Source of the DNA: Rhodospirillales bacterium
Lineage (GTDB): Bacteria > Pseudomonadota > Alphaproteobacteria > ATCC43930 > CGMCC-115725
Reading direction: 5' to 3'
Length of the DNA: 64,000 nt
Assembly (NCBI GenBank): GCA_947473305.1
Contig: CANJCB010000016.1
Location: 1-64,000, forward strand
The position numbers and the translations under genes were made by a program. Below are positions 2,318 to 35,756 of this stretch, piece after piece. Below the pieces are notes generated by a model, which had not been told where the DNA came from, made no database searches, and worked only from the letters and a program-made list of their open reading frames with translations. Each line of letters starts with the position of its first letter. Position 1 is the first letter of the stretch.

Positions 2318-3097
2318 TCACGCCGGCAGTTTCATCTCCGTCAGCGGGACGATCTTGACGCCGGCCGCTTCGAGGCCTTGAACGACGGCCTGGGCGATCT
2401 TCACCGAAGTGGGCTCGTCGCCGTGGATGCAGAGGCTCTCGACCTGATGGGGGATGCGCTTGCCGTTGCGCGAGATGACGGTGCCTTCCAGCACGATGGA
2501 AAGCACATTGCGCTTGGCCTGCTCCGGGTCGCTCATGACGGCGCCGGGGATCTTGCGGGAAGTCAGGTTGCCGTCATCATCGTAAAGCCGGTCGCAGAAA
2601 CCTTCGCGGGCCAGCGGCAGGCCGAGCTTGATCGCCGCCTTCTCCATCTCGGAGCCGCCAAGCGCCACATAGATCATCTTGGGGTCGACCGCCTTCATGG
2701 CGCGGCCGATGGCCAGCGCGTATTCCGCATCCTCGGCGGCCATGTTGTTGAGCGCGCCATGGGGCTTCAGGTGCGTGACCTTGGTGCCGGTATAGGCGGC
2801 CATGCCCTGAAGCGCGCCGATCTGATAGGCGACCAGGTTTTCCAGCTCCACCGGCTTCATGTCGATGCGGCGGCGGCCAAAGCCCCAGACATCGTTGAAG
2901 CCAGGATGACAACCGATGCTGACGCCCTCCTTGGCGGCGTTCTCGCAAAGCTCGCGCATCACATTGGCGTCGCCCGCATGCATGCCGCAGGCGACATTGG
3001 CGGACTTGATGTATTTGAGCAGCGGCAGGTCGTTGCCGATATGATAGATGCCATAGCTCTCGCCCATGTCGGCGTTGAGGTTGATCTGCTTGCTCAT
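2318..3097 (-). CDS. pxpA: 5-oxoprolinase subunit PxpA (LamB/YcsF family)
   Basis: 259 residues, the usual length. Opens with the LamB/YcsF signature INLNADMGESYG and continues with ANVACGMHAGDANVM, HLKPHGALNN and CIHGDEP, all conserved in the family. PxpA forms the hydrolase part of the ATP-dependent PxpABC 5-oxoprolinase, which opens the lactam of pyroglutamate to glutamate in the cytoplasm. In most genomes it is in one operon with pxpB and pxpC; here it is divergent from them across a 168-bp gap that contains a 17-bp element repeated before the molybdenum hydroxylase operon. A relative acting on another lactam cannot be excluded. Confidence 0.93.
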   Translation of the reverse strand: MSKQINLNADMGESYGIYHIGNDLPLLKYIKSANVACGMHAGDANVMRELCENAAKEGVSIGCHPGFNDVWGFGRRRIDMKPVELENLVAYQIGALQGMAAYTGTKVTHLKPHGALNNMAAEDAEYALAIGRAMKAVDPKMIYVALGGSEMEKAAIKLGLPLAREGFCDRLYDDDGNLTSRKIPGAVMSDPEQAKRNVLSIVLEGTVISRNGKRIPHQVESLCIHGDEPTSVKIAQAVVQGLEAAGVKIVPLTEMKLPA

Positions 3098-3153
3098 GCT
3101 GTCTTCTCCACCGCGTCTCGCGAGATCGTCGTTCCGACCAATCGCCGTATCGT

Positions 3154-3170
3154 CCTAAGAATAGAACCAT
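3154..3170. promoter_or_regulatory. 17-bp repeated element, candidate GntR operator (copy 1)
   Basis: CCTAAGAATAGAACCAT lies between divergent pxpA and pxpB. It is identical to 5829-5845 before the molybdenum hydroxylase operon, with the gntR gene between the two copies. Operator function is inference. Confidence 0.55.
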
Positions 3171-3265
3171 GATAAGAGAGGGGCTGCGAGGCGGGCAACA
3201 GGTTTCCGCGATGCTCCCCGCGACCTAAAGCCCCAAGTGTCCCTTCCGCAAGAGCCTGCCTTCCC

Positions 3266-3982
3266 GTGACCATCCGTTTCCTGCCCAGTGGTGACACAGC
3301 CCTCGTCGTCGAATTCGGCAGCGTGGTCGATCGAGCTTTGAGCGATCGGGTGCTCCGGCTCGCGGCCGGCCTGGAGGGAACGAAGGGCATCGTGGAGACG
3401 GTGCCGACCTTCCGCTCCATCATGATCCACTACGACCCCCTCTCGACGGGTTTTGCGGAACTGAAATCGGCGGTCGAGGCTTTGCTGGGCCGGGACAAGC
3501 CCATCGAGCGGCAAGCGAAGCTCTGGCACGTGCCCGCCTGCTACGAGGGTGAATGGGCGCCCGACCTCGAAGACGTGGCCCGCCGCACCGGTCTCGGGAC
3601 CGCGGAGGTGGTGAAGCTCCATTCGGAAGTCCGCTACCACATCTATATGCTGGGCTTCCTGCCGGGCTATCCCTACATGGGCGATTTGCCCGAGGTGCTG
3701 CGACTGCCCCGCCGCATCGATCCCCGGGTCAAGGTTCCGGCCGGTTCGGTGGCGATCGCAACGACCATGACCGCGATCTATACGCTGGAAAGTCCTGGCG
3801 GCTGGCATTTGATCGGCACCACGCCCCTGCGTTTCTTCGATCCCGCTGCCGAACGGCCGGCGATCCTGAGCCCTGGCGACGCCATCGAATTCGAGCCTGT
3901 GAGCCCCGGCGAATTTGCCTCGGTCAAGCGGGCTGTCCTCGCCGGCGACTACAAGGTGCAGAGCGAGAGGCTGGTGCTGTGA
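3266..3982 (+). CDS. pxpB: 5-oxoprolinase subunit PxpB (KipI family)
   Basis: 238 residues from a GTG start. Matches the KipI/PxpB family throughout: FLPSGDTALVVEFG at the N terminus, an HxxxxY-type block around YHIYMLGFLPGYPYMGDLP, the RIDPRVKVPAGSVAIA stretch and GGWHLIGTTPLRFFDP near the end. Together with PxpC it activates 5-oxoproline using ATP so that PxpA can hydrolyse the ring. Its stop overlaps the pxpC start as GTGA, so the two are translationally coupled. Homologues also regulate kinase KipI in Bacillus, but the complete ABC set here favours the enzyme role. Confidence 0.93.
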   Translation: MTIRFLPSGDTALVVEFGSVVDRALSDRVLRLAAGLEGTKGIVETVPTFRSIMIHYDPLSTGFAELKSAVEALLGRDKPIERQAKLWHVPACYEGEWAPDLEDVARRTGLGTAEVVKLHSEVRYHIYMLGFLPGYPYMGDLPEVLRLPRRIDPRVKVPAGSVAIATTMTAIYTLESPGGWHLIGTTPLRFFDPAAERPAILSPGDAIEFEPVSPGEFASVKRAVLAGDYKVQSERLVL

Positions 3983-4995
3983 CGCTCAAGGTCGCCTCGC
4001 CGGGTTTTCATACCACCGTCCAGGATCTGGGTCGCGTCGGCTGGCAGGATTCAGGCGTGCCGGTATCGGGGGCGCTCGATCCCCTGAGCCTGCGTATCGC
4101 CAATGGCCTCGTCGGAAATGCGCCTGATGCGGCTGCGCTGGAGATGCTCCTCATGGGGCCTACCTTGGAGGTCGAGGCGGAGTCCGTCCGGGTGGCGCTT
4201 GCGGGCGATGCCGCGAAGCTTGAAATCCTTGGCGAGAGCCCCCGTGCTCTCCTGTCGCATCAGAGCGTGTTTCTCAGCCGGGGCCAGAAGTTCCGCGTGG
4301 CGGGACTGGCATCTTCGGCCTGCGCCTATCTTGCGATCGAGGGCGGGATCGCGGTGCCGCCTTTTCTCGGCAGCGCCTCGACCTATGTCCGGGGCGGGCT
4401 GGGAGGTTTCGAGGGGCGCGCGCTGAGGGCCGGGGATCTGCTTCCCTTGGTTCGCGACAAATCCCCGGAGCGGCCGGAGCTCCGGCTGCGCCGTGCCCCG
4501 GAAATCGACCGCGACGTGATTCGTGTGGTGCTGGGACCCCAGGACGATTTCTTCGACGAGGCCAATATCGCCACCTTCCTCGGTTCGGACTGGCGTATCT
4601 CGCGTGACGCCGACCGGATGGGGATGCGGCTCGAAGGACCTACGCTCGCTCACAAGGCTGGCTATGATATCGTGTCGGACGGGATCGTGACCGGGGCGAT
4701 CCAAGTCCCGGGCTCCGGCCAGCCGATTCTTCTGCTGGCGGATCACCAGACCACCGGGGGCTATCCCAAGATCGCCACCGTGATTTCGGCAGACCTGCCT
4801 GCCGCCGGGCGCCGCCGGCCGGGCGGAACCATCCGCTTTGCCGCGGTTACGGTCGAAGAAGCGGAAGAAATCCGCCGGGCGCAGGAACGGGATCTGGCGA
4901 AACTTCTCGCCTCGGCGGAAACCGTGATGCAGGAAGCGATCATCGATCTCGGCGCCCTCTATTCGGCGAACCTCATAAGCGGGGTCGTCGGGTGA
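3979..4995 (+). CDS. pxpC: 5-oxoprolinase subunit PxpC (KipA/biotin-dependent carboxyltransferase family)
   Basis: 338 residues. I choose GTG at 3979, which overlaps the pxpB stop, over the much longer open frame upstream, because family similarity begins exactly at LKVASPGFHTTVQDLGR. Further signatures are GVPVSGALDPLSLRIAN, the AYLAIEGGI region, VVLGPQDDFF and SDGIVTGAIQVPGSGQPI. It forms the ATP-dependent part of 5-oxoprolinase with PxpB. Forty nucleotides downstream is a GntR regulator on the same strand, probably co-transcribed. Confidence 0.93.
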   Translation: MTLKVASPGFHTTVQDLGRVGWQDSGVPVSGALDPLSLRIANGLVGNAPDAAALEMLLMGPTLEVEAESVRVALAGDAAKLEILGESPRALLSHQSVFLSRGQKFRVAGLASSACAYLAIEGGIAVPPFLGSASTYVRGGLGGFEGRALRAGDLLPLVRDKSPERPELRLRRAPEIDRDVIRVVLGPQDDFFDEANIATFLGSDWRISRDADRMGMRLEGPTLAHKAGYDIVSDGIVTGAIQVPGSGQPILLLADHQTTGGYPKIATVISADLPAAGRRRPGGTIRFAAVTVEEAEEIRRAQERDLAKLLASAETVMQEAIIDLGALYSANLISGVVG

Positions 4996-5035: not shown

Positions 5036-5785
5036 GTGGGGATGACGAGCGCGCCGGCAAGGACGACAAGGCAGAACGGCATCCCGCTCTATGTGCAGCT
5101 TGCGACGACGCTTCGCCGCCGCATCGAGACTGGGAAATGGCCTTCGGGCAGCAAGATCTCGACCCTGGAAGAATTGCAGGAGGAGTTCCAGGTCGCCCGG
5201 GTCACCGTGCGCCAGGCCGTGGACCTCATCCAGAAAGAAGGGCTCGTCCGCCGTCAGCAGGGCAAGGGCACTTTCGTGCTCGAAGGGCTCGAAGACAGGC
5301 GCTGGCTCAAGCTCGCCATGGATTGGAAATCGCTTGTCGATACCATCAAGGACAATGTCCTGAAGGTGATTGAACTCGACAAGGAGCCGGCGGCGCCCCG
5401 ACTCGACGAAGGGCAGGGGAAGCCTGCCGCAGCCTATGTCTTCCAGCGGAGCGTCCAGTCGAGAGGGGATCAACCCCATTCGGTGGTGAACCTTCATCTG
5501 GCGAAGGACCTCTATGAGAGCGATCCCCGCGCCTTCCGCAGCCGTTCGGCGCTTGGCACCATCGCTGCGATGAATATAGAGGTGAAGGGCGCGCATCAGA
5601 CGCTGGTGATCGGCACTGCTGATACCCAGACTGCCTCGCTTCTGGCGCTGCCCCTCAATGCGCCCATCGTCGAGACTCATTGCGTGGTGGTCGATCAGGC
5701 GGGTATCGCGATCTATGTGGCGGATGTCATCTATCGCGGTGACGTCATAAAGCTCGATATCGACCTGCTGGCCTCGCGCGACTAG
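5036..5785 (+). CDS. GntR/HutC-family transcriptional regulator with UTRA domain
   Basis: 249 residues from GTG at 5036 (AAGGA 10 nt upstream; an ATG two codons later is also possible). The N-terminal winged helix (about 15-85) is typical: LYVQLATTLRRRIETGKWPSGS, then VARVTVRQAVDLIQKEGLVRRQQGKGTFV. The rest is a UTRA ligand-binding domain (about 100-245), which makes it a HutC-subfamily member that likely senses a small organic metabolite. It sits between pxpBC and the molybdenum hydroxylase operon. The two flanking 17-bp repeats are the obvious candidate operators, so it probably controls both units, including its own operon. Confidence 0.9.
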   Translation: MGMTSAPARTTRQNGIPLYVQLATTLRRRIETGKWPSGSKISTLEELQEEFQVARVTVRQAVDLIQKEGLVRRQQGKGTFVLEGLEDRRWLKLAMDWKSLVDTIKDNVLKVIELDKEPAAPRLDEGQGKPAAAYVFQRSVQSRGDQPHSVVNLHLAKDLYESDPRAFRSRSALGTIAAMNIEVKGAHQTLVIGTADTQTASLLALPLNAPIVETHCVVVDQAGIAIYVADVIYRGDVIKLDIDLLASRD

Positions 5786-5865: not shown

Positions 5866-8229
5866 GTGGCAGACGGAGATATCAAAGAGGGCAAAGGCGT
5901 CGGCGCGCGGCTCATCCGCAAGGAGGATGACCGCTATATGCGCGGGCGCGGCCAATATATCGCCGACATCAAGCTGCCGGGGATGGTGGAGGTCGCCTTC
6001 CACCGCAGCCCGCTTGCCCATGCGCGGTTGCGCGGCGTCACGATCCCGGAGGAACATCGGGGCTCGGTCTTTACCGCCGCCGATATGGTCGGCGTGAAGC
6101 CGATGCGCGCGGTCTCCGGGCTTCCGGGGTTCAAGCCCTCCGAACAACCCGCCATCGTTACCGAGAAGGTCCGCCATGTGGGCGAACCGGTCGCGATCTG
6201 CTTCGCCGAGGGTCGCGCCGAGGCCGAGGACATCGCCGCCTCTCTGATCGTCGATTGGGAGGAACTGCCGGCCGTCTCCGACATGCTCAAGGGCCGGGAA
6301 CCCGGTGCGCCCCTGCTGCATGAGCATTGGGGCGACAACATCTTCCTCGAATCCTTCGTGGATGGGGATATCGAGTCCATTGCCAAGGATGCGGCGATCA
6401 AGGTCACGCGGGAAATCCGCACGGCCCGCCAATGCATGGCGCCCATCGAAGGGCGCGGCGTCGTCGCCTGGTGGGACAACCGCCTCAACCAGCTGACGCT
6501 CTATAGCGCCTGCCAGATGCCACATATCATCCGGACCGGGCTTTGCGGCTGCCTCGGTCTCGATCATGCGCAGGTGCGGATCATCGCGCCCGACGTGGGG
6601 GGCGGTTTCGGCTACAAGGGCATCCTGCTCGCCGAGGAAGTGGCCTGCGGCTGGCTCGCCATGAAGATCGGGCGGCCGGTGCGCTGGATCGAGGACCGGC
6701 GCGAGGCGCTGACGGCCGCCGCCAATTGTCGCGAGCATCATTATTTCATCACCGGCTATGCCGCGGCGGACGGCACGCTCCTGGCGCTGGAAGCCGAGGC
6801 GACGGTCGATAGCGGCGCCTATTCGGCCTATCCCTTCAGCGCCTGCCTCGAAGCGGCCCAGGTCGCGAGCATCCTGCCCGGTCCCTACGACTTCAAGGCC
6901 TATCGCTGCCGGACCTATTCGGTGGCGACCAATAAGTGCCCGATCCTGCCCTATAGGGGCGTGGCGCGGACGGGCGTTTGCCTGGCGATGGAACTGATCC
7001 TCGACGGCATCGCGGTCGAGGCCGGGATCGAACCCTATGAGGTGCGGTTGAAGGCCTTGGTGCCGCCAGAAAAGATGCCCTTCGACAATATCACCAAGAA
7101 GCATTTCGACAGTGGCGACTATCCGGAATGCCTGAAGCGGGCGGTTGCGGCTATCGACGTGCCGGCGGTTCGTGCCCGGCAGAAGCGGGGCGAGCCGGAT
7201 GGCCGGCTCATCGGCCTCGGTATGTCGATCTTCTGCGAGCAGGGCTCCCACGGAACCTCGGTCTATGCGGGCTGGGGCATTCCCATGGTGCCGGGCCACG
7301 AACAGGCCCAGGCGCGCATGACGCCGGACGGCGGCCTCGAAATCCGGGTTGGTGTTCAGTCGCATGGCCAAGGCCTGGAGACGACGCTCGCCCAGGTCGC
7401 CAATGAGGTGCTCGGGATCGATCCTGCCAAGATCCAGGTCGTTCACGGCGACACGGGCATGACGCCCTATTCGACCGGCACCTGGGGCTCCCGCTGCATG
7501 GTCATGGCCGGCGGCGCGGTGGCGACCGCCTGCAAGGAACTCGGCAAGCGGCTGGGACGCATCGGCGCGAAGCTGCTCCAGACCGATGTCGCCAACGTCA
7601 AGATCGGCAATGGCGAGGTCGTCGGGCCTTCGGGCAGTGTCTCCATCGCCGAAATCGCCCGCGTCTGGTATCTCCGCCCCCAGGATCTCCCGGCCGATGT
7701 CGATCCAGGCGGGATCGAGGTCACGGCAGGCTATAAGCCCCAACGCGACAGCGGCACCTTCAGCTATGCGGCCCATGCGGTCGTGGTTGCCGTGGATCCC
7801 GTGACCGGCGGGGTCGAAATCCTCGACTACGTGGTGGTCGAGGATGGCGGCGTGCTGGTCAATCCGATGATCGTCGATGGCCAGGTCTATGGCGGTGTGG
7901 CCCAGGGGATCGGCACCGCGCTTCTGGAAGAAATGCCCTTCGATGCGGCGGGCCAGCCGCTCGCATCGACCTTGGCGGACTATCTGCTGCCGGGTTCGAC
8001 CGATGTGCCGTCGATCCGCATCCTCCATATGGAGACGCCCTCGCCCTATACGGAATTCGGCCAGAAGGGCATCGGCGAGAGCGGCGCGATCGGTCCCCCC
8101 GCCGCCATCGTCAATGCGATCAACGATGCGATCCGTCCCTTGGGCGCGGAAATCAACCAGGTTCCCGCCACCCCGCGCCGGGTGGTCGAGGCGATCGCTG
8201 CGGCCGCCCGCGCCAAGAAGGTCGCATGA
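5866..8229 (+). CDS. Molybdenum hydroxylase large subunit (xanthine dehydrogenase/CoxL family)
   Basis: 787 residues, GTG start, with the family opening GVGARLIRKEDDRYMRGRGQY about 10 residues in. Molybdopterin-cytosine-dinucleotide-binding stretches include GGGFGYKG near 245. The active-site loop around residue 362 reads PYRGVARTG, related to the AYRGAGR loop of form-II enzymes and lacking the Cys of true CO dehydrogenase (AYxCSFR). The catalytic Glu is in GIGESGAIGP near residue 736. It hydroxylates an unknown substrate, probably a heterocycle, aldehyde or lactam-type ring, using water as oxygen source. It overlaps the FAD subunit gene by 4 nt. Its link to pxpABC through gntR suggests formation or breakdown of a lactam. 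Confidence 0.92.
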   Translation: MADGDIKEGKGVGARLIRKEDDRYMRGRGQYIADIKLPGMVEVAFHRSPLAHARLRGVTIPEEHRGSVFTAADMVGVKPMRAVSGLPGFKPSEQPAIVTEKVRHVGEPVAICFAEGRAEAEDIAASLIVDWEELPAVSDMLKGREPGAPLLHEHWGDNIFLESFVDGDIESIAKDAAIKVTREIRTARQCMAPIEGRGVVAWWDNRLNQLTLYSACQMPHIIRTGLCGCLGLDHAQVRIIAPDVGGGFGYKGILLAEEVACGWLAMKIGRPVRWIEDRREALTAAANCREHHYFITGYAAADGTLLALEAEATVDSGAYSAYPFSACLEAAQVASILPGPYDFKAYRCRTYSVATNKCPILPYRGVARTGVCLAMELILDGIAVEAGIEPYEVRLKALVPPEKMPFDNITKKHFDSGDYPECLKRAVAAIDVPAVRARQKRGEPDGRLIGLGMSIFCEQGSHGTSVYAGWGIPMVPGHEQAQARMTPDGGLEIRVGVQSHGQGLETTLAQVANEVLGIDPAKIQVVHGDTGMTPYSTGTWGSRCMVMAGGAVATACKELGKRLGRIGAKLLQTDVANVKIGNGEVVGPSGSVSIAEIARVWYLRPQDLPADVDPGGIEVTAGYKPQRDSGTFSYAAHAVVVAVDPVTGGVEILDYVVVEDGGVLVNPMIVDGQVYGGVAQGIGTALLEEMPFDAAGQPLASTLADYLLPGSTDVPSIRILHMETPSPYTEFGQKGIGESGAIGPPAAIVNAINDAIRPLGAEINQVPATPRRVVEAIAAAARAKKVA

Positions 8230-9035
8230 AGCCCGGTCCTTTCGATTACGCCCGGCCCGCGACGGTCGAGCGTGCGGCGGCTCTGTTGGCCGGCAGCGGC
8301 TTTGCTAAGCTGCTTTCCGGTGGGCAGTCACTTGGCCCGATGCTGAATCTTCGATTGGCGCGGCCGGATCTGCTGGTCGATCTCACCCATATCGCGAGCC
8401 TGAAAGAAATCCGCGAAACAAAGGACTTCCTGGAAATCGGCGCCTGCGTGACCCATGCCAATATCGAAGATGGCCTGGTGCCCGATTGCACCAATGGGAT
8501 GCTGCCCTCGGTGGCGTCCAATATCGCCTATCGGGCGGTGCGCAACCGGGGCACCATCGGCGGCAGCCTCAGCCACGCGGATCCTGCCGCCGATTGGGTC
8601 AGCACGCTGACCGTGCTCGATGCCGAGATCGTCATTCGCGGGGCCAAGGGACAGCGCCGCGTGCCCATGGCGAATTACATGCTGGGCACCTTCGAGGTGG
8701 CGCTCGAAGAAGGCGAGTTCCTGGAAGCGGTTCGCGTGCCGAGGTTCTCGAAATCCGCGCGTTGGGGCTATTACAAATTCTGTCGCAAGGCGGGCGAATT
8801 TGCTGAAGCCATCGGGGCGGTGGTGCGCGATCCCGAGCGTGGCGTTTGCCGCGCCGTAATGGGGGCCACCCATTCGACGCCCATCCTGGTAGCAGATGCG
8901 ACCGCGCTTATCGGCCAGGGCTTCGATGCGGCCGCGGCTGGGGCGTTGCTCGACCGGCATGAGATAACCGACGCCTATGAGCGCCAGCTCCATGTGGAGG
9001 CCTTGCGCCGCGCCACGGTCCAGGCAGGGGCCTGA
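8226..9035 (+). CDS. Molybdenum hydroxylase FAD-binding medium subunit (CoxM family)
   Basis: 269 residues. The FAD-binding PCMH fold is marked by LLSGGQSLGPMLNLRLARP (about 31-50) and by RNRGTIGGSLSHADPAADW (about 103-121), which contact the flavin in CoxM and XDH relatives. The C-terminal CO_deh_flav_C domain follows (about 170-265). It passes electrons from the iron-sulfur subunit to an acceptor. ATG at 8226 overlaps the large-subunit stop (ATGA), and one nucleotide separates its stop from the next ATG, so the L-M-S(G) genes form one tightly coupled operon. Confidence 0.92.
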   Translation: MKPGPFDYARPATVERAAALLAGSGFAKLLSGGQSLGPMLNLRLARPDLLVDLTHIASLKEIRETKDFLEIGACVTHANIEDGLVPDCTNGMLPSVASNIAYRAVRNRGTIGGSLSHADPAADWVSTLTVLDAEIVIRGAKGQRRVPMANYMLGTFEVALEEGEFLEAVRVPRFSKSARWGYYKFCRKAGEFAEAIGAVVRDPERGVCRAVMGATHSTPILVADATALIGQGFDAAAAGALLDRHEITDAYERQLHVEALRRATVQAGA

Positions 9036-9036
9036 G

Positions 9037-10218
9037 ATGGAAAAGCTCACGCTTACCGTCAACGGCAAGAAGGTCTCCGCCGAGGTCCAGCCGCGTACCC
9101 ATCTCGCCGACTTCCTGCGCGAGCAGGTGGTGCTGACGGGCACTCACATCGGCTGCGAGCATGGCGTCTGCGGGGCCTGCACCCTGCTGATTGACGGTCA
9201 ACCCGCGCGGTCCTGCATCACCTTCGCCATCGCCTGCGAGGGAGCCGATGTCACCACCATCGAAGGCCTCGACGACGACGAGGTGATGGTGCAACTCCGG
9301 ACTGCCTTTTCCCGCGAGCATGCGCTGCAATGCGGCTATTGCACGCCGGGGATGCTCGCCATGGCGCGCGATATCGTGCGGCGGCTTCCCAATGCGGACG
9401 AGCAGCGCATCCGTCTCGAACTCTCCGGCAACCTCTGCCGCTGTACCGGCTATGTCGGGATCGTCGGCGCCATCCGTAGTGTTCTGGAGGCGCGTAAAGG
9501 CACGGCCGCCGTGCCGCTCCCCGAAAAACTCGGGCCGGTGGGATCGCAGGGCTTAGCCTCGGAGACCGTCACCGCCGATGTGAAACACGAGCCGAAGCCT
9601 ATTCCGCCCGAGGCTTTTGCGCCGACGAAGATAGCGCCCGGCCCAGATCTGCCGATGGGCAAGCCCGCGACGGTAATCAACCAGTCCTTCACTGTCCATC
9701 GCCCGCGCCCCGAGGTCTGGGCGCAATTCGGCGATATCGCTAGCACGGCGACCTGCATGCCCGGCGCCAAGCTCTCGAAACCTCCCGAGGGCGGCCATGT
9801 GGAAGCCGAAATCCGCATCAAGTTCGGCCCCATCGTCGCGCAATTCCAGGGTGAACTGGATGTGGAGCGGGACGATGCGCAATTCCGCGGCGTCGCTCAT
9901 GGCCGGGGTCGCGACGACCGCCAAGGGGCTCTTGTCCGTGCCGAGGTAACTTACGCTCTGGCCGAGGTCGAAGGCGGTGCGGCCACCCGCGTCGATGTGA
10001 CGGTGGGCTTTACGCTCGCTGGCCCTCTTGCTCAATTCAGCCGCAGCGGACTCGTCAACGATTTCGCCTCCCGGCTCACGGCGGAATTCGCCCGCAATCT
10101 GGAGGCGCGCATGGCAGGCGGCTCGGAGGCCATCCTGCCTGCCGAGGAATTAAGCACGGTCTCGCTGTTCTTCTCGGTCGTCTGGGGACGGGTGAAGCGG
10201 CTCTTCGCGCGTTCGTGA
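9037..10218 (+). CDS. Fusion of 2Fe-2S small subunit (CoxS) and CoxG-like SRPBCC domain
   Basis: 393 residues. Residues 1-150 are a complete CoxS: C40, C45, C48, C60 for the plant-type 2Fe-2S cluster and C99, C102, C134, C136 for the second cluster (CGYC...CRC). A Pro-rich linker (about 155-210) leads to a CoxG-type SRPBCC domain (about 212-360, with CMPGAKL and a FxGELDVE-like strand) and a short hydrophobic/basic tail (LFFSVVWGRVKRLF, 377-390) that could touch the membrane. CoxG is normally a separate membrane-associated protein reported to connect Mo-CO dehydrogenase with membrane quinone. Here it is covalently tied to the electron-exit subunit. I start at ATG 9037; an upstream in-frame extension lies inside coxM. 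Confidence 0.92.
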   Translation: MEKLTLTVNGKKVSAEVQPRTHLADFLREQVVLTGTHIGCEHGVCGACTLLIDGQPARSCITFAIACEGADVTTIEGLDDDEVMVQLRTAFSREHALQCGYCTPGMLAMARDIVRRLPNADEQRIRLELSGNLCRCTGYVGIVGAIRSVLEARKGTAAVPLPEKLGPVGSQGLASETVTADVKHEPKPIPPEAFAPTKIAPGPDLPMGKPATVINQSFTVHRPRPEVWAQFGDIASTATCMPGAKLSKPPEGGHVEAEIRIKFGPIVAQFQGELDVERDDAQFRGVAHGRGRDDRQGALVRAEVTYALAEVEGGAATRVDVTVGFTLAGPLAQFSRSGLVNDFASRLTAEFARNLEARMAGGSEAILPAEELSTVSLFFSVVWGRVKRLFARS

Positions 10219-10428: not shown

Positions 10429-11481
10429 ATGTCCGAGATCCAGTTTTATCGCCCGACCGGCAAGTCCGTCTGGTACGGCAAGGACCTGGCGAAATCCACG
10501 GAATGGACCTACCAGTTCACCTCGGCGGCGCTCGCCGAAATCGACCGTAACTTGACCGAGGTCAAGAAGCGCGGCGCCAAGATCGAGGAGATCACCAAAG
10601 CCGACTTCCCGCTGACCGCCATGGCCGAGGATATGAAGGCGCTCATCCAGGAAGTCGCCAAGGGCCGTGGTTTCGTGGTCATGCGCGGCCTGCCTCGGGA
10701 CAAGTACAGCGACGAGGATCTCGGCCTTATCTACTGGGGCGTGGGCGCGCATTTCGGCCGTCCGATCATCCAAAGCCACCAGGGCGACCGCCTCGGCCAT
10801 ATCATGGACCTGAGCGACGAGGAGCCCGATCCGACGCGCCGCCGGGCCTATCATTCGGGCGGCCCGCAGCATACCCATACGGACGCCTCGGACATCGTCT
10901 CCATGCTCAGTCTGCAGGCCGCTAAGACCGGCGGCTGCAGCCGCCTCGCCAGCGCCCATACCGTCCATAATGTAATGATGGACACCTGCCCCGGCCTGTT
11001 GCGCCAGATGTACGAGGGCTTCCTCCTGCGCGAGCCCGACAGCGACGCTGCCGCCGCCCAGCGCCCGCCGCTGTCGCCCTATCGCGTCCCGGCCTATACG
11101 GTCCAGGGCGATCTCCTAGATTGCTATTATGTCGGCGGCTTCGTCGACCGTGGCGTGCGCGCCGGCGACTTCACCCTGACGCCGGTGGAGCAGGCGGCGA
11201 AGGACGCCTTTGCCGCCATCAGCAACCATCCGGATATCTATCTCGACATGCATCTGGCGCCCGGGGATATGCAATTCTTCAACAACCGCAGCGTTCTCCA
11301 CGGCCGCGAGGCTTTCGAGGATTTCCCCGAGAAGGAACGCCGCCGCCATCTCCTGCGCCTCTGGCTCAAGGTGCCGGAATGGAAGCCGATCGATGCTCGT
11401 CAGGGCCGTTATTCCTCCGACGAGTTGACACGGAACTGGGAAGCGTCGGCGCAGAAACATCGCGCGGCAGCGGCGGAATAG
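10429..11481 (+). CDS. TauD/TfdA-family Fe(II)/2-oxoglutarate dioxygenase (paralogue 1)
   Basis: 350 residues from ATG 10429 (AAAGGAAG 5 nt upstream). Iron ligands are visible as H150-x-D152 in HTHTDASD and H291 in NNRSVLHGRE; the Arg residues of RRRHLLRLW (near 305-310) would bind 2-oxoglutarate. Such enzymes hydroxylate or desaturate small molecules, releasing succinate and CO2. It differs most from the other three TauD genes here (22021, 46810, 48004), which share an N-terminal YRxxIxHPSAW block absent from this one. Substrate unknown. It lies downstream of the molybdenum hydroxylase operon but has its own leader region. Confidence 0.9.
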   Translation: MSEIQFYRPTGKSVWYGKDLAKSTEWTYQFTSAALAEIDRNLTEVKKRGAKIEEITKADFPLTAMAEDMKALIQEVAKGRGFVVMRGLPRDKYSDEDLGLIYWGVGAHFGRPIIQSHQGDRLGHIMDLSDEEPDPTRRRAYHSGGPQHTHTDASDIVSMLSLQAAKTGGCSRLASAHTVHNVMMDTCPGLLRQMYEGFLLREPDSDAAAAQRPPLSPYRVPAYTVQGDLLDCYYVGGFVDRGVRAGDFTLTPVEQAAKDAFAAISNHPDIYLDMHLAPGDMQFFNNRSVLHGREAFEDFPEKERRRHLLRLWLKVPEWKPIDARQGRYSSDELTRNWEASAQKHRAAAAE

Positions 11482-32079: not shown

Positions 32080-32940
32080 ATGAAGCTACCGCCCTTCGAA
32101 TATGCCTGTCCAGCGACCCTCGACGAGGCGATAGCGCTGCTCGCGTCCCGTGACGGCGACGCCAAGGCGATCTCCGGTGGCCAGAGCCTGATGCCGATCC
32201 TGGCGTTCCGCTTGGCCTCCCCCAGCCTGCTGGTCGATCTCAAGAAGCTGAAAGGTCTCGATCAGATCAAGATCGACGCCTCGGGCATCACGCTCGGCGC
32301 GAAGGTAAGCTGGCGGCAGATCGAGGATGACAAGCGGCTCGCGACCGCCCATCCGCTCCTCCAGGAAATGATCTCCCATGTCGCGCATTATCAGATCCGC
32401 AACAGGGGCACGGTGGGCGGCAGCATCGCTCATGCGGATCCCGCGGCCGAAATGCCCGGCTTCTCCGTAACCTGCGACGCCAAGATCGTGGTCAAGGGAT
32501 CGAGCGGCGAGCGCATCATTCCGGCCGGCGAATTCTTCGAAGGGCCGCTGATGACGGTTCTCGAAGCCGACGAATTGATCACCGAGATCCGGCTGCCGCC
32601 CTGGCCTGCGGCGCGGCGCTGGGGGATGCTCGAATTCGCCCGCCGGCGTGGCGATTTCGCCATGGGCGGTGTTGCGGTCTTCTACGATCTCGACGCGCAG
32701 GGTCGTGCGGTCGATGCCCATGTGGGCGTGATCGGCGCGGGCTCGATCCCGCATCGGGTGCCCGGCGCCGAGGCCGCGATCAACGGCACGACCGTGGATG
32801 AGACGGCAATCCTCGCGGCCGCCAAGGCTGCGGCGGCGGGAGTGGAGCCGCTGACGGACATCCATGCGAGCGCCGCCTATCGGCGCAATCTGATTTCGGT
32901 GCTGCTCGAGCGCGCGCTTCGCGCCGCCGTGGCACGTTAA
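32080..32940 (+). CDS. Second molybdenum hydroxylase, FAD-binding subunit (CoxM family)
   Basis: 286 residues. FAD-binding signatures are AISGGQSLMPILAFRLASP near residue 28-46 and RNRGTVGGSIAHADPAAEMP near 107-126, with the C-terminal flavoprotein domain after about 175. First gene of an M-S-L operon, the order of coxMSL, whereas the operon at 5866 has L-M-S. Next gene follows after 15 nt. Electrons from the small subunit leave through this FAD. Confidence 0.92.
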   Translation: MKLPPFEYACPATLDEAIALLASRDGDAKAISGGQSLMPILAFRLASPSLLVDLKKLKGLDQIKIDASGITLGAKVSWRQIEDDKRLATAHPLLQEMISHVAHYQIRNRGTVGGSIAHADPAAEMPGFSVTCDAKIVVKGSSGERIIPAGEFFEGPLMTVLEADELITEIRLPPWPAARRWGMLEFARRRGDFAMGGVAVFYDLDAQGRAVDAHVGVIGAGSIPHRVPGAEAAINGTTVDETAILAAAKAAAAGVEPLTDIHASAAYRRNLISVLLERALRAAVAR

Positions 32941-32955
32941 GGGGGAACAGGGACA

Positions 32956-33447
<492 letters not shown>

Positions 33448-33458
33448 GGGGAAATAGG

Positions 33459-35756
33459 ATGAGTAAGGCGAACCGCTTTGTCGGCAGCCCGGTCGAGCGG
33501 CTTGAAGACCTGCGCTTGTTGCGCGGGCGCGGGCGCTTCGTCGACGATCTGACCGCAGAGGGCGTGCTGAACGCCGTCATCCTCCGCAGCCCGGTCGCCC
33601 ATGGCATCATCAAGGGCATCGACACGAGCGCCGCTCTCGCCATCCCTGGCGTCGTTGCCGTGCTCACGGCGGAGGAGATCGGACGGCCGGTCCCGACCAT
33701 CCCGATCCGGCTTTTCGCTTCAAAGCTCACGGAGCCCTTGGAACAGCCCTGCATCGCCGATCGCAAGGTGCGCTATGTGGGCGAGCCTGTCGTGCTCGTG
33801 ATCGCCGAGAGCCAGGCAATTGCCGAAGACGCCTGCGACGCGGTCGTGCTCGATATCGAGACGCTGCCGCCGGTCGTGACGCGCGAGGCTGCCGAGAAGG
33901 GCCAGTCGCTGCTTTTTGACGAGTTAGGCACCAATCGCTGCGCGCGATTCACGGCGATCAAGGGCGATGCGGACGATGCCTTCCGCAATGCTGCCTATCG
34001 CCGCCGCGAACGTTTCGGGGTGCATAGGCATACCGCCGTCTTCATGGAGGGCCGGGGGCTTCTGGCCGAATGGTTCGAGGAGGAAGGCAAGCTCGTCGTC
34101 CAAGGCGGCGCCAAGGTGCCTTTCGCGACCCGCAAGGCGCTATCCAAGCAGATGAACCTGCCCGAGGACAAGATCGAGGTCCATGAGGCGGATACGGGCG
34201 GCGGCTTCGGCTCGCGCGGCGAGTTCTATCCCGAGGATTTCCTGATCCCCTTTGCCGCGCGCTATGTGGGCAAGCCGATCAAATGGGTCGAGGACCGGCG
34301 CGAGCATCTCGCCTGTTCCAACCATTCCCGCGAAACCGAGGTCGAGGCCGAGATCGCCTGCGACAAGAACGGCATGGTGCTGGGCCTGCGCGGCACCGCT
34401 TTCGTCGATTCCGGCGCCTATGTGCGGACCAACGGGCTTATCAACCCGCGCAATGTCTCGCAGTTCATGTCCGGTCCCTATCACGTGCCGAACATCAATA
34501 TCGTGACGGATTTCTATCTCTCGAACAAAGGACCGGTCGGGACCTATCGGGGGCCGGGCCGGTATGAGACGGATTACGTGCGCGAGCGGCTCTTCGACAT
34601 GGCGGCCAACGACCTCGGCATCGATCGGGTTGAATTCCGGCGCCGCAATCTCGTCCGCGAAGACCAGATGCCCTACCAGCTTCCGCAGATCGTGGAAACC
34701 AAGAGCGGCGACGAACTCGACAGCGGCAACTACGAGGTCACGCTCGACCAGTGCCTCGCCGAATTCAAATGGGCCGAGAAGGTCGAGAAATACGACGGTA
34801 AGCTGATCGACGGCCGCTATCACGGGTTGGGCCTGCATTGCTTCATCGAAGGCGGTGCGGCGGGTCCAAAGGAAAATGCGCGTCTCGTGCTTGAGAAGAG
34901 CGGGAATGTCTCGGTCTATGTGGGCTCGTCCCAGGTAGGGCAAGGCGTGGTCACCGTCCTGACCCAGATCGCTGCCGATGCGCTCGAAATGCCGATGGAT
35001 AAGATCGCCATTTTCCACGGCTCCACGACCGGGACGAAAGAGGGCTTCGGCTCCTTCCATTCGCGCTCCACGGTGATGGGCGGTTCCGCCATCGTCGTGG
35101 CAGCCGCCAGCCTTCAGAAGCTCATGCGCGAGGCGGCGGGCCGTCGCTTCAACTGCGCGCCGGGCGAGGTAACTCTCGAAGACGGCAAGGCGCAGGGGCC
35201 GGGCGGTAAGTCGCTGACCTTCGCGGAACTGGCGGAAGAGGATATCTCCATCGAGGAGAGTTTCTTCAACCACAAGCACACCTGGGCCTATGGCACCCAT
35301 GCGACCCATATCGCCGTGGATCCTCAGACCGGGCAGGTCGAGGTGCTGGAATATGTCGCGGTCGAAGACGTGGGCCGCATGGTCAATCCGCTGACCCTCG
35401 GCGGGCAGGCGGTGGGCGCCATTGTCCAGGGCCTGGGCGGGACCTTTCTCGAACATCTGATCTATGACGGCGAGGGCCAGCTTCTGACCGGCACTTTCGC
35501 GGATTATCTCCTGCCGACGGCGGGCGACTTCCCGCGGATCCGGGCGATCATGACGGGCAACTATCCTTCACCGATCAATCCCTTGGGCGTCAAGGGTGCT
35601 GGCGAGGGCGGCATCATTCCGGTGGGCGGCATCATGGCCAATGCCATCGCTTCGGCGCTCAGGTCCTTCAATGTTCAGCCTCTGGAACTTCCCCTCTCTC
35701 CGCCGCGCATCTGGAAGCTGATCGATGACGCCAGACCGGCGGAGGCAGCGGAGTAA
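33459..35756 (+). CDS. Second molybdenum hydroxylase, large subunit (CoxL/XDH family)
   Basis: 765 residues. N-terminal block FVGSPVERLEDLRLLRGRGRFVDD; cofactor-binding GGGFGSRG near residue 250. The active-site loop near 362 is TYRGPGRYE, again a form-II-like loop without the CO-dehydrogenase cysteine. The catalytic Glu lies in GVKGAGEGG near 714. It hydroxylates an unknown organic substrate. Maturation genes (coxDEF, moco sulfuration) are absent nearby. A solute-binding protein follows 71 nt downstream on the same strand and may supply the substrate. Confidence 0.92.
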   Translation: MSKANRFVGSPVERLEDLRLLRGRGRFVDDLTAEGVLNAVILRSPVAHGIIKGIDTSAALAIPGVVAVLTAEEIGRPVPTIPIRLFASKLTEPLEQPCIADRKVRYVGEPVVLVIAESQAIAEDACDAVVLDIETLPPVVTREAAEKGQSLLFDELGTNRCARFTAIKGDADDAFRNAAYRRRERFGVHRHTAVFMEGRGLLAEWFEEEGKLVVQGGAKVPFATRKALSKQMNLPEDKIEVHEADTGGGFGSRGEFYPEDFLIPFAARYVGKPIKWVEDRREHLACSNHSRETEVEAEIACDKNGMVLGLRGTAFVDSGAYVRTNGLINPRNVSQFMSGPYHVPNINIVTDFYLSNKGPVGTYRGPGRYETDYVRERLFDMAANDLGIDRVEFRRRNLVREDQMPYQLPQIVETKSGDELDSGNYEVTLDQCLAEFKWAEKVEKYDGKLIDGRYHGLGLHCFIEGGAAGPKENARLVLEKSGNVSVYVGSSQVGQGVVTVLTQIAADALEMPMDKIAIFHGSTTGTKEGFGSFHSRSTVMGGSAIVVAAASLQKLMREAAGRRFNCAPGEVTLEDGKAQGPGGKSLTFAELAEEDISIEESFFNHKHTWAYGTHATHIAVDPQTGQVEVLEYVAVEDVGRMVNPLTLGGQAVGAIVQGLGGTFLEHLIYDGEGQLLTGTFADYLLPTAGDFPRIRAIMTGNYPSPINPLGVKGAGEGGIIPVGGIMANAIASALRSFNVQPLELPLSPPRIWKLIDDARPAEAAE

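Follow-up and report, generated by a model that had tools for sequence, protein, structure and literature searches.

Why is an iron-sulfur subunit of a molybdenum hydroxylase joined covalently to a CoxG-type domain, and what might that domain do there? The question is raised by a single gene, called SG here, in the 64,000-nt stretch of a Rhodospirillales bacterium contig (CANJCB010000016.1) that we analysed and refer to as the window. SG lies third in a tight L-M-SG operon, in which the CoxL and CoxM genes overlap by four bases and one base separates the CoxM stop from the SG start. The operon, the parts of SG and a comparison gene are:

5866–8229, + strand: CoxL-type molybdenum subunit, 787 aa (Pfam Ald_Xan_dh_C, MoCoBD_1 and MoCoBD_2; PYRGVAR loop, GIGESG)
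8226–9035, + strand: CoxM-type FAD subunit, 269 aa (Pfam FAD_binding_5)
9037–10218, + strand: CoxS-CoxG fusion gene (SG), 393 aa (ATG at 9037, TGA at 10216–10218)
9037–9501, + strand: CoxS part of SG, residues 1–155, two [2Fe-2S] motifs (Fer2, Fer2_2; cysteine motifs; fold match)
9502–9663, + strand: Ala/Pro-rich linker, residues 156–209, LGPVGS near its start (pLDDT, composition)
9664–10119, + strand: CoxG-type SRPBCC domain, residues 210–361 (PF06240; 8UDS by sequence and fold)
10150–10215, + strand: hydrophobic/basic C-terminal helix, residues 372–393 (model, column conservation)
32956–33447, + strand: plain CoxS of the second hydroxylase, 163 aa (comparison case)

SG is a single open frame running from a two-cluster CoxS through a linker and a CoxG-type SRPBCC domain to a C-terminal helix. 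Pfam places Fer2 (1.3e-07), Fer2_2 (9.6e-25) and COXG (1.2e-09) on it, all above the Pfam cut-offs, and both [2Fe-2S] motifs are intact in SG and in all 66 distinct fusions that we collected from loci in other genomes and this one. A sequencing artefact does not explain the frame, since the same genome has a second S-G fusion and the collected loci contain 66 distinct ones. An earlier sequence-only reading of this DNA had claimed a two-cluster CoxS covalently joined to a CoxG-type domain, and the one 393-aa frame, its Pfam domains and its cluster motifs bear this out. An NCBIfam search at E 0.001 gave no model spanning the whole SG protein. The second hydroxylase of the window (32080–35756, gene order M-S-L) has the plain CoxS listed above and, as the same reading had said, no CoxG: SG is the sole PF06240 match on the contig.

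The AlphaFold2 single-chain model of SG (mean pLDDT 83.9), for which 62 of the 66 fusions served as the input alignment, has two well-formed domains, a linker with pLDDT below 50 at residues 175–200 and a separate C-terminal helix at 374–392. Its S part resembles CO dehydrogenase small subunits (1n60_D, Z 22.4). The predicted CoxG domain superimposes on M. smegmatis CoxG (8UDS) with Z 21.6 and an rmsd of 1.4 Å over 146 of 147 residues at 34% identity, well ahead of the next fold matches, 2pcs (Z 17.9) and 2ns9 (Z 16.8). Sequence searches agree: the domain scores 38.4 bits against PF06240, whose curated cut-off is 22.2, and 8UDS is its only clear solved relative (1.8e-19). The CoxG-type assignment holds. 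The 8UDS entry is titled ‘CoxG from M. smegmatis, minus lipid anchoring C-terminus’. Across the 66 fusions the core is conserved at PG 242–243, GP 264–265, G272, G329, LAQ 331–333 and R336; of the 40 positions at which 90% or more of the fusions have a hydrophobic residue, M. smegmatis CoxG is hydrophobic at 38, as compared with 58 of 144 overall.

The linker, described earlier as Pro-rich, is Ala/Pro-rich, with a mean Ala plus Pro fraction of 0.36 over the 66 fusions against 0.14 in the S part and 0.18 in the G part; it is 29–81 residues long (median 54) and is predicted to be disordered. An LGPxGS motif often stands at its start (9529–9546 in the window, residues 165–170), with P167 present in 95% of the 66 fusions. 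The tail deserves the name hydrophobic/basic that it had been given, as its mean net charge is +4.2 and the 66 fusions conserve hydrophobic residues at positions 377, 378, 381, 382, 386, 389 and 390 and basic ones at 385, 387 and 392. We also considered an amphipathic helix, but over roughly the final 18 residues the moment exceeded that of composition-matched shuffles (z 1.64) in just one of the 66 fusions; we therefore keep to the term hydrophobic/basic helix. In a genome of the same family, one locus (L105:5867–7564) encodes a CoxS that lacks the CoxG domain. Its C-terminus consists of a short Ala/Pro segment plus a basic tail (LWGKIKTALGAKPKA), which looks like loss of the CoxG domain with retention of the tail.

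A molybdenum subunit, an FAD subunit and a two-cluster iron-sulfur subunit encoded together make this, by Pfam, cluster motifs and gene order, a three-subunit xanthine-oxidase-family hydroxylase. The copper-binding loop of form I Mo-CODH is AYxCSFR; this is absent here, and the active-site loop reads PYRGVAR in the window CoxL and in 56 of the 62 CoxL rows of fused units. Against the CO dehydrogenase model TIGR02416, CoxL scores 454.6 bits, below the cut-off of 991.15. Loop and score together uphold the assignment as a non-CO hydroxylase.

What, then, does the CoxG domain contribute? That the two are covalently fused is a good indication that CoxG works together with the hydroxylase itself. 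Our preferred reading, to which we give a probability of roughly 55%, is that the domain is a tethered, membrane-anchored module that delivers ubiquinone to a non-CO molybdenum hydroxylase. In xanthine-oxidase-family enzymes electrons travel from the molybdenum centre through two [2Fe-2S] clusters to FAD. For SG we infer quinone binding, docking at the FAD, membrane contact and the direction of electron flow, and the steps could be these. L-M-SG would act as a three-subunit hydroxylase of this family on a substrate other than CO, and the two S-part clusters would relay electrons released at the molybdenum centre to the FAD on M. A flexible, roughly 50-residue Ala/Pro linker would tether the CoxG domain to S, and the C-terminal helix would keep that domain close to the membrane, where it could pick ubiquinone from the bilayer, offer it to the FAD and return it reduced. 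A tethered quinone carrier would thus replace the separate CoxG of Mo-CODH. According to an excerpt of PMC13240472, which cites Kropp 2025, CoxG binds menaquinone and hands electrons derived from CO to the quinone pool.

The choice of ubiquinone comes from the genome. The proteobacterial UbiA family (ubiquinone prenyltransferase) matches at 358 bits (cut-off 275.45), while searches for the MenA and MqnA-type families in the genome found no match to either, so that a quinone carried by the CoxG domain should be ubiquinone; judged by these three families, the genome appears to be ubiquinone-only.

A conserved core, a flexible arm and a tail together are best fitted by the tethered quinone carrier, and the main rival is a plain anchor, which we regard as unlikely although it is the strongest of the alternatives: CoxG domain and tail would dock the hydroxylase at the inner face of the membrane, where the FAD would reduce ubiquinone directly, and the pocket would hold lipid or nothing. 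Such a role has precedents. Oligotropha coxG mutants retain active CO dehydrogenase, but their growth on CO is about seven times slower and the particulate form of the enzyme is lost (PMC4240915, excerpt), and in the excerpted text of PMC11962113 a CoxG-like protein of Sulfolobus recruits glycerol-3-phosphate dehydrogenase to the membrane, the enzyme alone being able to reduce quinone. The relative with a tail and no CoxG domain (L105) also suits an anchor. Against this, the tail alone would suffice for anchoring, yet the SRPBCC core is conserved in the 66 fusions, and among solved structures the domain is closest to a CoxG described, in the part of PMC13240472 cited, as menaquinone-binding.

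A good deal less probable is that the CoxG domain binds some other ligand, such as a hydrophobic substrate or product, or that it aids enzyme assembly. SRPBCC domains accommodate a wide range of hydrophobic ligands (PMC2577659, in part), and the neighbouring genes indicate catabolism of varied compounds; the very differences among neighbours, however, are easier to reconcile with a common electron-transfer part than with one for the substrate, and the metal cluster of CO dehydrogenase assembles without CoxG according to an excerpt of PMC4240915, which argues against assembly. We think it highly improbable that the chain is cut, or an internal start used, so that S and G work separately: an in-frame start codon lies near the CoxG domain in 44 of the 66 fusions (in the window an ATG with a Shine-Dalgarno match of 2 out of 6). 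In four of the 66 such a start reaches a match of 5 out of 6 or better, versus 0/66 at a control place in S. But the other 62 have no such site by this weak test, which recognises only 15 of the 66 true SG starts, and the Met next to the CoxG domain is not a conserved column.

The sequence-only reading had made the fusion look more exceptional than it is. It is real but recurs widely, with a second copy in the same genome outside the window. PF06240 occurs at four places in the genome, one of the four being on the window's contig (C16): the others are a standalone gene adjoining S and L (C10), a standalone gene (C52) and the second S-G fusion, 383 aa long, downstream of its own L and M (C13). 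Whole SG protein searched against its own genome matched at 18 places, of which, among the matches listed, two span both domains; close relatives of the genome seem to lack the fusion, in that among the matches listed for 41 genomes in the same whole-protein search, only those of the own genome span both domains. The second fusion (L107:6255–10900) lies beside a gamma-glutamyltransferase gene and a ring-hydroxylating dioxygenase pair. We considered whether the design is confined to this genome, and rejected it in view of that second fusion and of the fusions in other loci and genomes.

A search for the same domain order, which the sequence-only reading had proposed, did find it. Scanning genome contigs gave 430 loci, of which the best 80 were kept; because the query was itself fused, fractions of these are not frequencies. 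S and G share one frame in 59 of the 80 and are separate genes side by side in 14, and seven have no G near. These seven are close L-M-S operons, so not every enzyme of the group requires the CoxG domain; this speaks against the carrier reading, as does the unremarkable moment of the tail. Split units have the gene order L-M-S-G in 16 of 18 cases, which speaks for it. Fusions also occur in Burkholderiales (L026) and Actinomycetota (L096, L097, L099). A survey of 387 genomes sampled from the window's class, with at most four candidates scored per genome, gave a full-length fused frame without stops in 15 and one more with an internal stop. A match was found in 1280 plasmid records, and in 36 of them it covers 80% of the query or more (split genes counted in); the usual annotation of the fused gene there, where it has one, is ‘2Fe-2S iron-sulfur cluster-binding protein’. 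These widespread fused enzymes, known in plasmid records only as Fe-S proteins, are thus candidate respiratory dehydrogenases. Our search of the open literature, in which Kropp 2025 and the HpdA paper (see below) were not covered and may contain one, gave no description of a CoxS-CoxG fusion.

Phylogenies give mixed support for a single origin of the fusion. In the CoxS tree a single clade of the 66 fused rows is not rejected (p-AU 0.264). In the CoxL tree the window row falls inside a set of 52 fused rows (SH-aLRT 95), nearest to L023 at 73% identity, with the split and G-less groups outside that set; a single fused clade is rejected (62 versus 36 rows, p-AU 1.3e-05), although this hypothesis was set after seeing the tree, the tree has long branches, and L may have been reassorted. 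The CoxG tree requires two changes.

Lipoyl domains swing on Ala/Pro linkers, and a wider proposal for SG, which we hold tentatively and at somewhat below even odds, is that these recurrent molybdenum hydroxylases carry their own quinone on a swinging domain, whose Ala/Pro arm would let it move between the bilayer and the FAD, the fusion having arisen, or having been reassorted with its partner subunits, more than once. If so, heterocycle oxidation would be wired to respiration inside one complex. We know of few tests of how electrons leave cytosolic xanthine-oxidase-family enzymes other than CO dehydrogenase. SG offers a single protein for expression, and cutting its linker, domain or tail can separate quinone transport from membrane anchoring.

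Comparison with known systems sets SG apart in several respects. M. smegmatis CoxG (8UDS), a partner of Mo-CODH, has the fold predicted for the SG domain and a membrane-directed C-terminus, as the SG tail may be; it is a separate protein working with menaquinone and CO dehydrogenase, whereas SG is fused to the Fe-S subunit, probably uses ubiquinone and belongs to a non-CO enzyme. Split L-M-S-G operons, as on Azospirillum plasmids (L103), share gene order and L group with SG and have a similar tail, but there S and G are two genes and the S-G linker is missing. HpdA, the 3-hydroxypyridine dehydrogenase of Ensifer adhaerens HP1, has four genes by the title of its paper, and a CoxG homologue is proposed as the anchor of this four-component dehydrogenase (cited in PMC11962113, excerpt). 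The glycerol-3-phosphate dehydrogenase of Sulfolobus acidocaldarius is likewise brought to the membrane by a CoxG-like protein; unlike SG, that case involves another enzyme class and a separate protein, one argued in the same excerpt of PMC11962113 not to carry electrons.

As for the substrate, the genes around the operon offer some indications:

2318–3097, − strand: PxpA-like (LamB/YcsF) gene (PxpA subfamily model, 332.9 bits, cut-off 226)
3266–3982, + strand: PxpB-like gene (189.7 bits, cut-off 145.55)
3979–4995, + strand: PxpC-like gene, 5-oxoprolinase/urea amidolyase domain (TIGR00724, 301.6 vs 230.2; PxpC equivalog 239.5, under 500)
5036–5785, + strand: GntR/UTRA regulator (domain match)
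10432–11481, + strand: TauD-family dioxygenase downstream of SG, relation uncertain (Pfam TauD, 5.6e-29)

Relatives of the GntR regulator are found in 30 of the 59 fused loci, and PxpA-, PxpB- or PxpC-like genes in the flanks of 17; none of the 21 unfused loci has either, a comparison in which the queries were the window's own genes and so favour near relatives. The TauD-family gene has no close relative beside the other fused loci. PxpABC-like genes adjoin GntR and L-M-SG at 2318–4995 in the window and in the flanks of L022, L023, L026, L048, L052, L059, L064 and L070, and this recurrence in several fused loci suggests a lactam intermediate. With low confidence, we propose that the hydroxylase converts a cyclic imine or N-heterocycle to a lactam that would be opened by the PxpABC-like enzyme. 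Genes around the fusions vary from locus to locus. On S. meliloti pSymA (L100, 2680–5606), NAD(P) transhydrogenase genes stand immediately upstream of the L-M-SG operon, and PNTB was found in 6 of the 141 neighbour proteins scanned.
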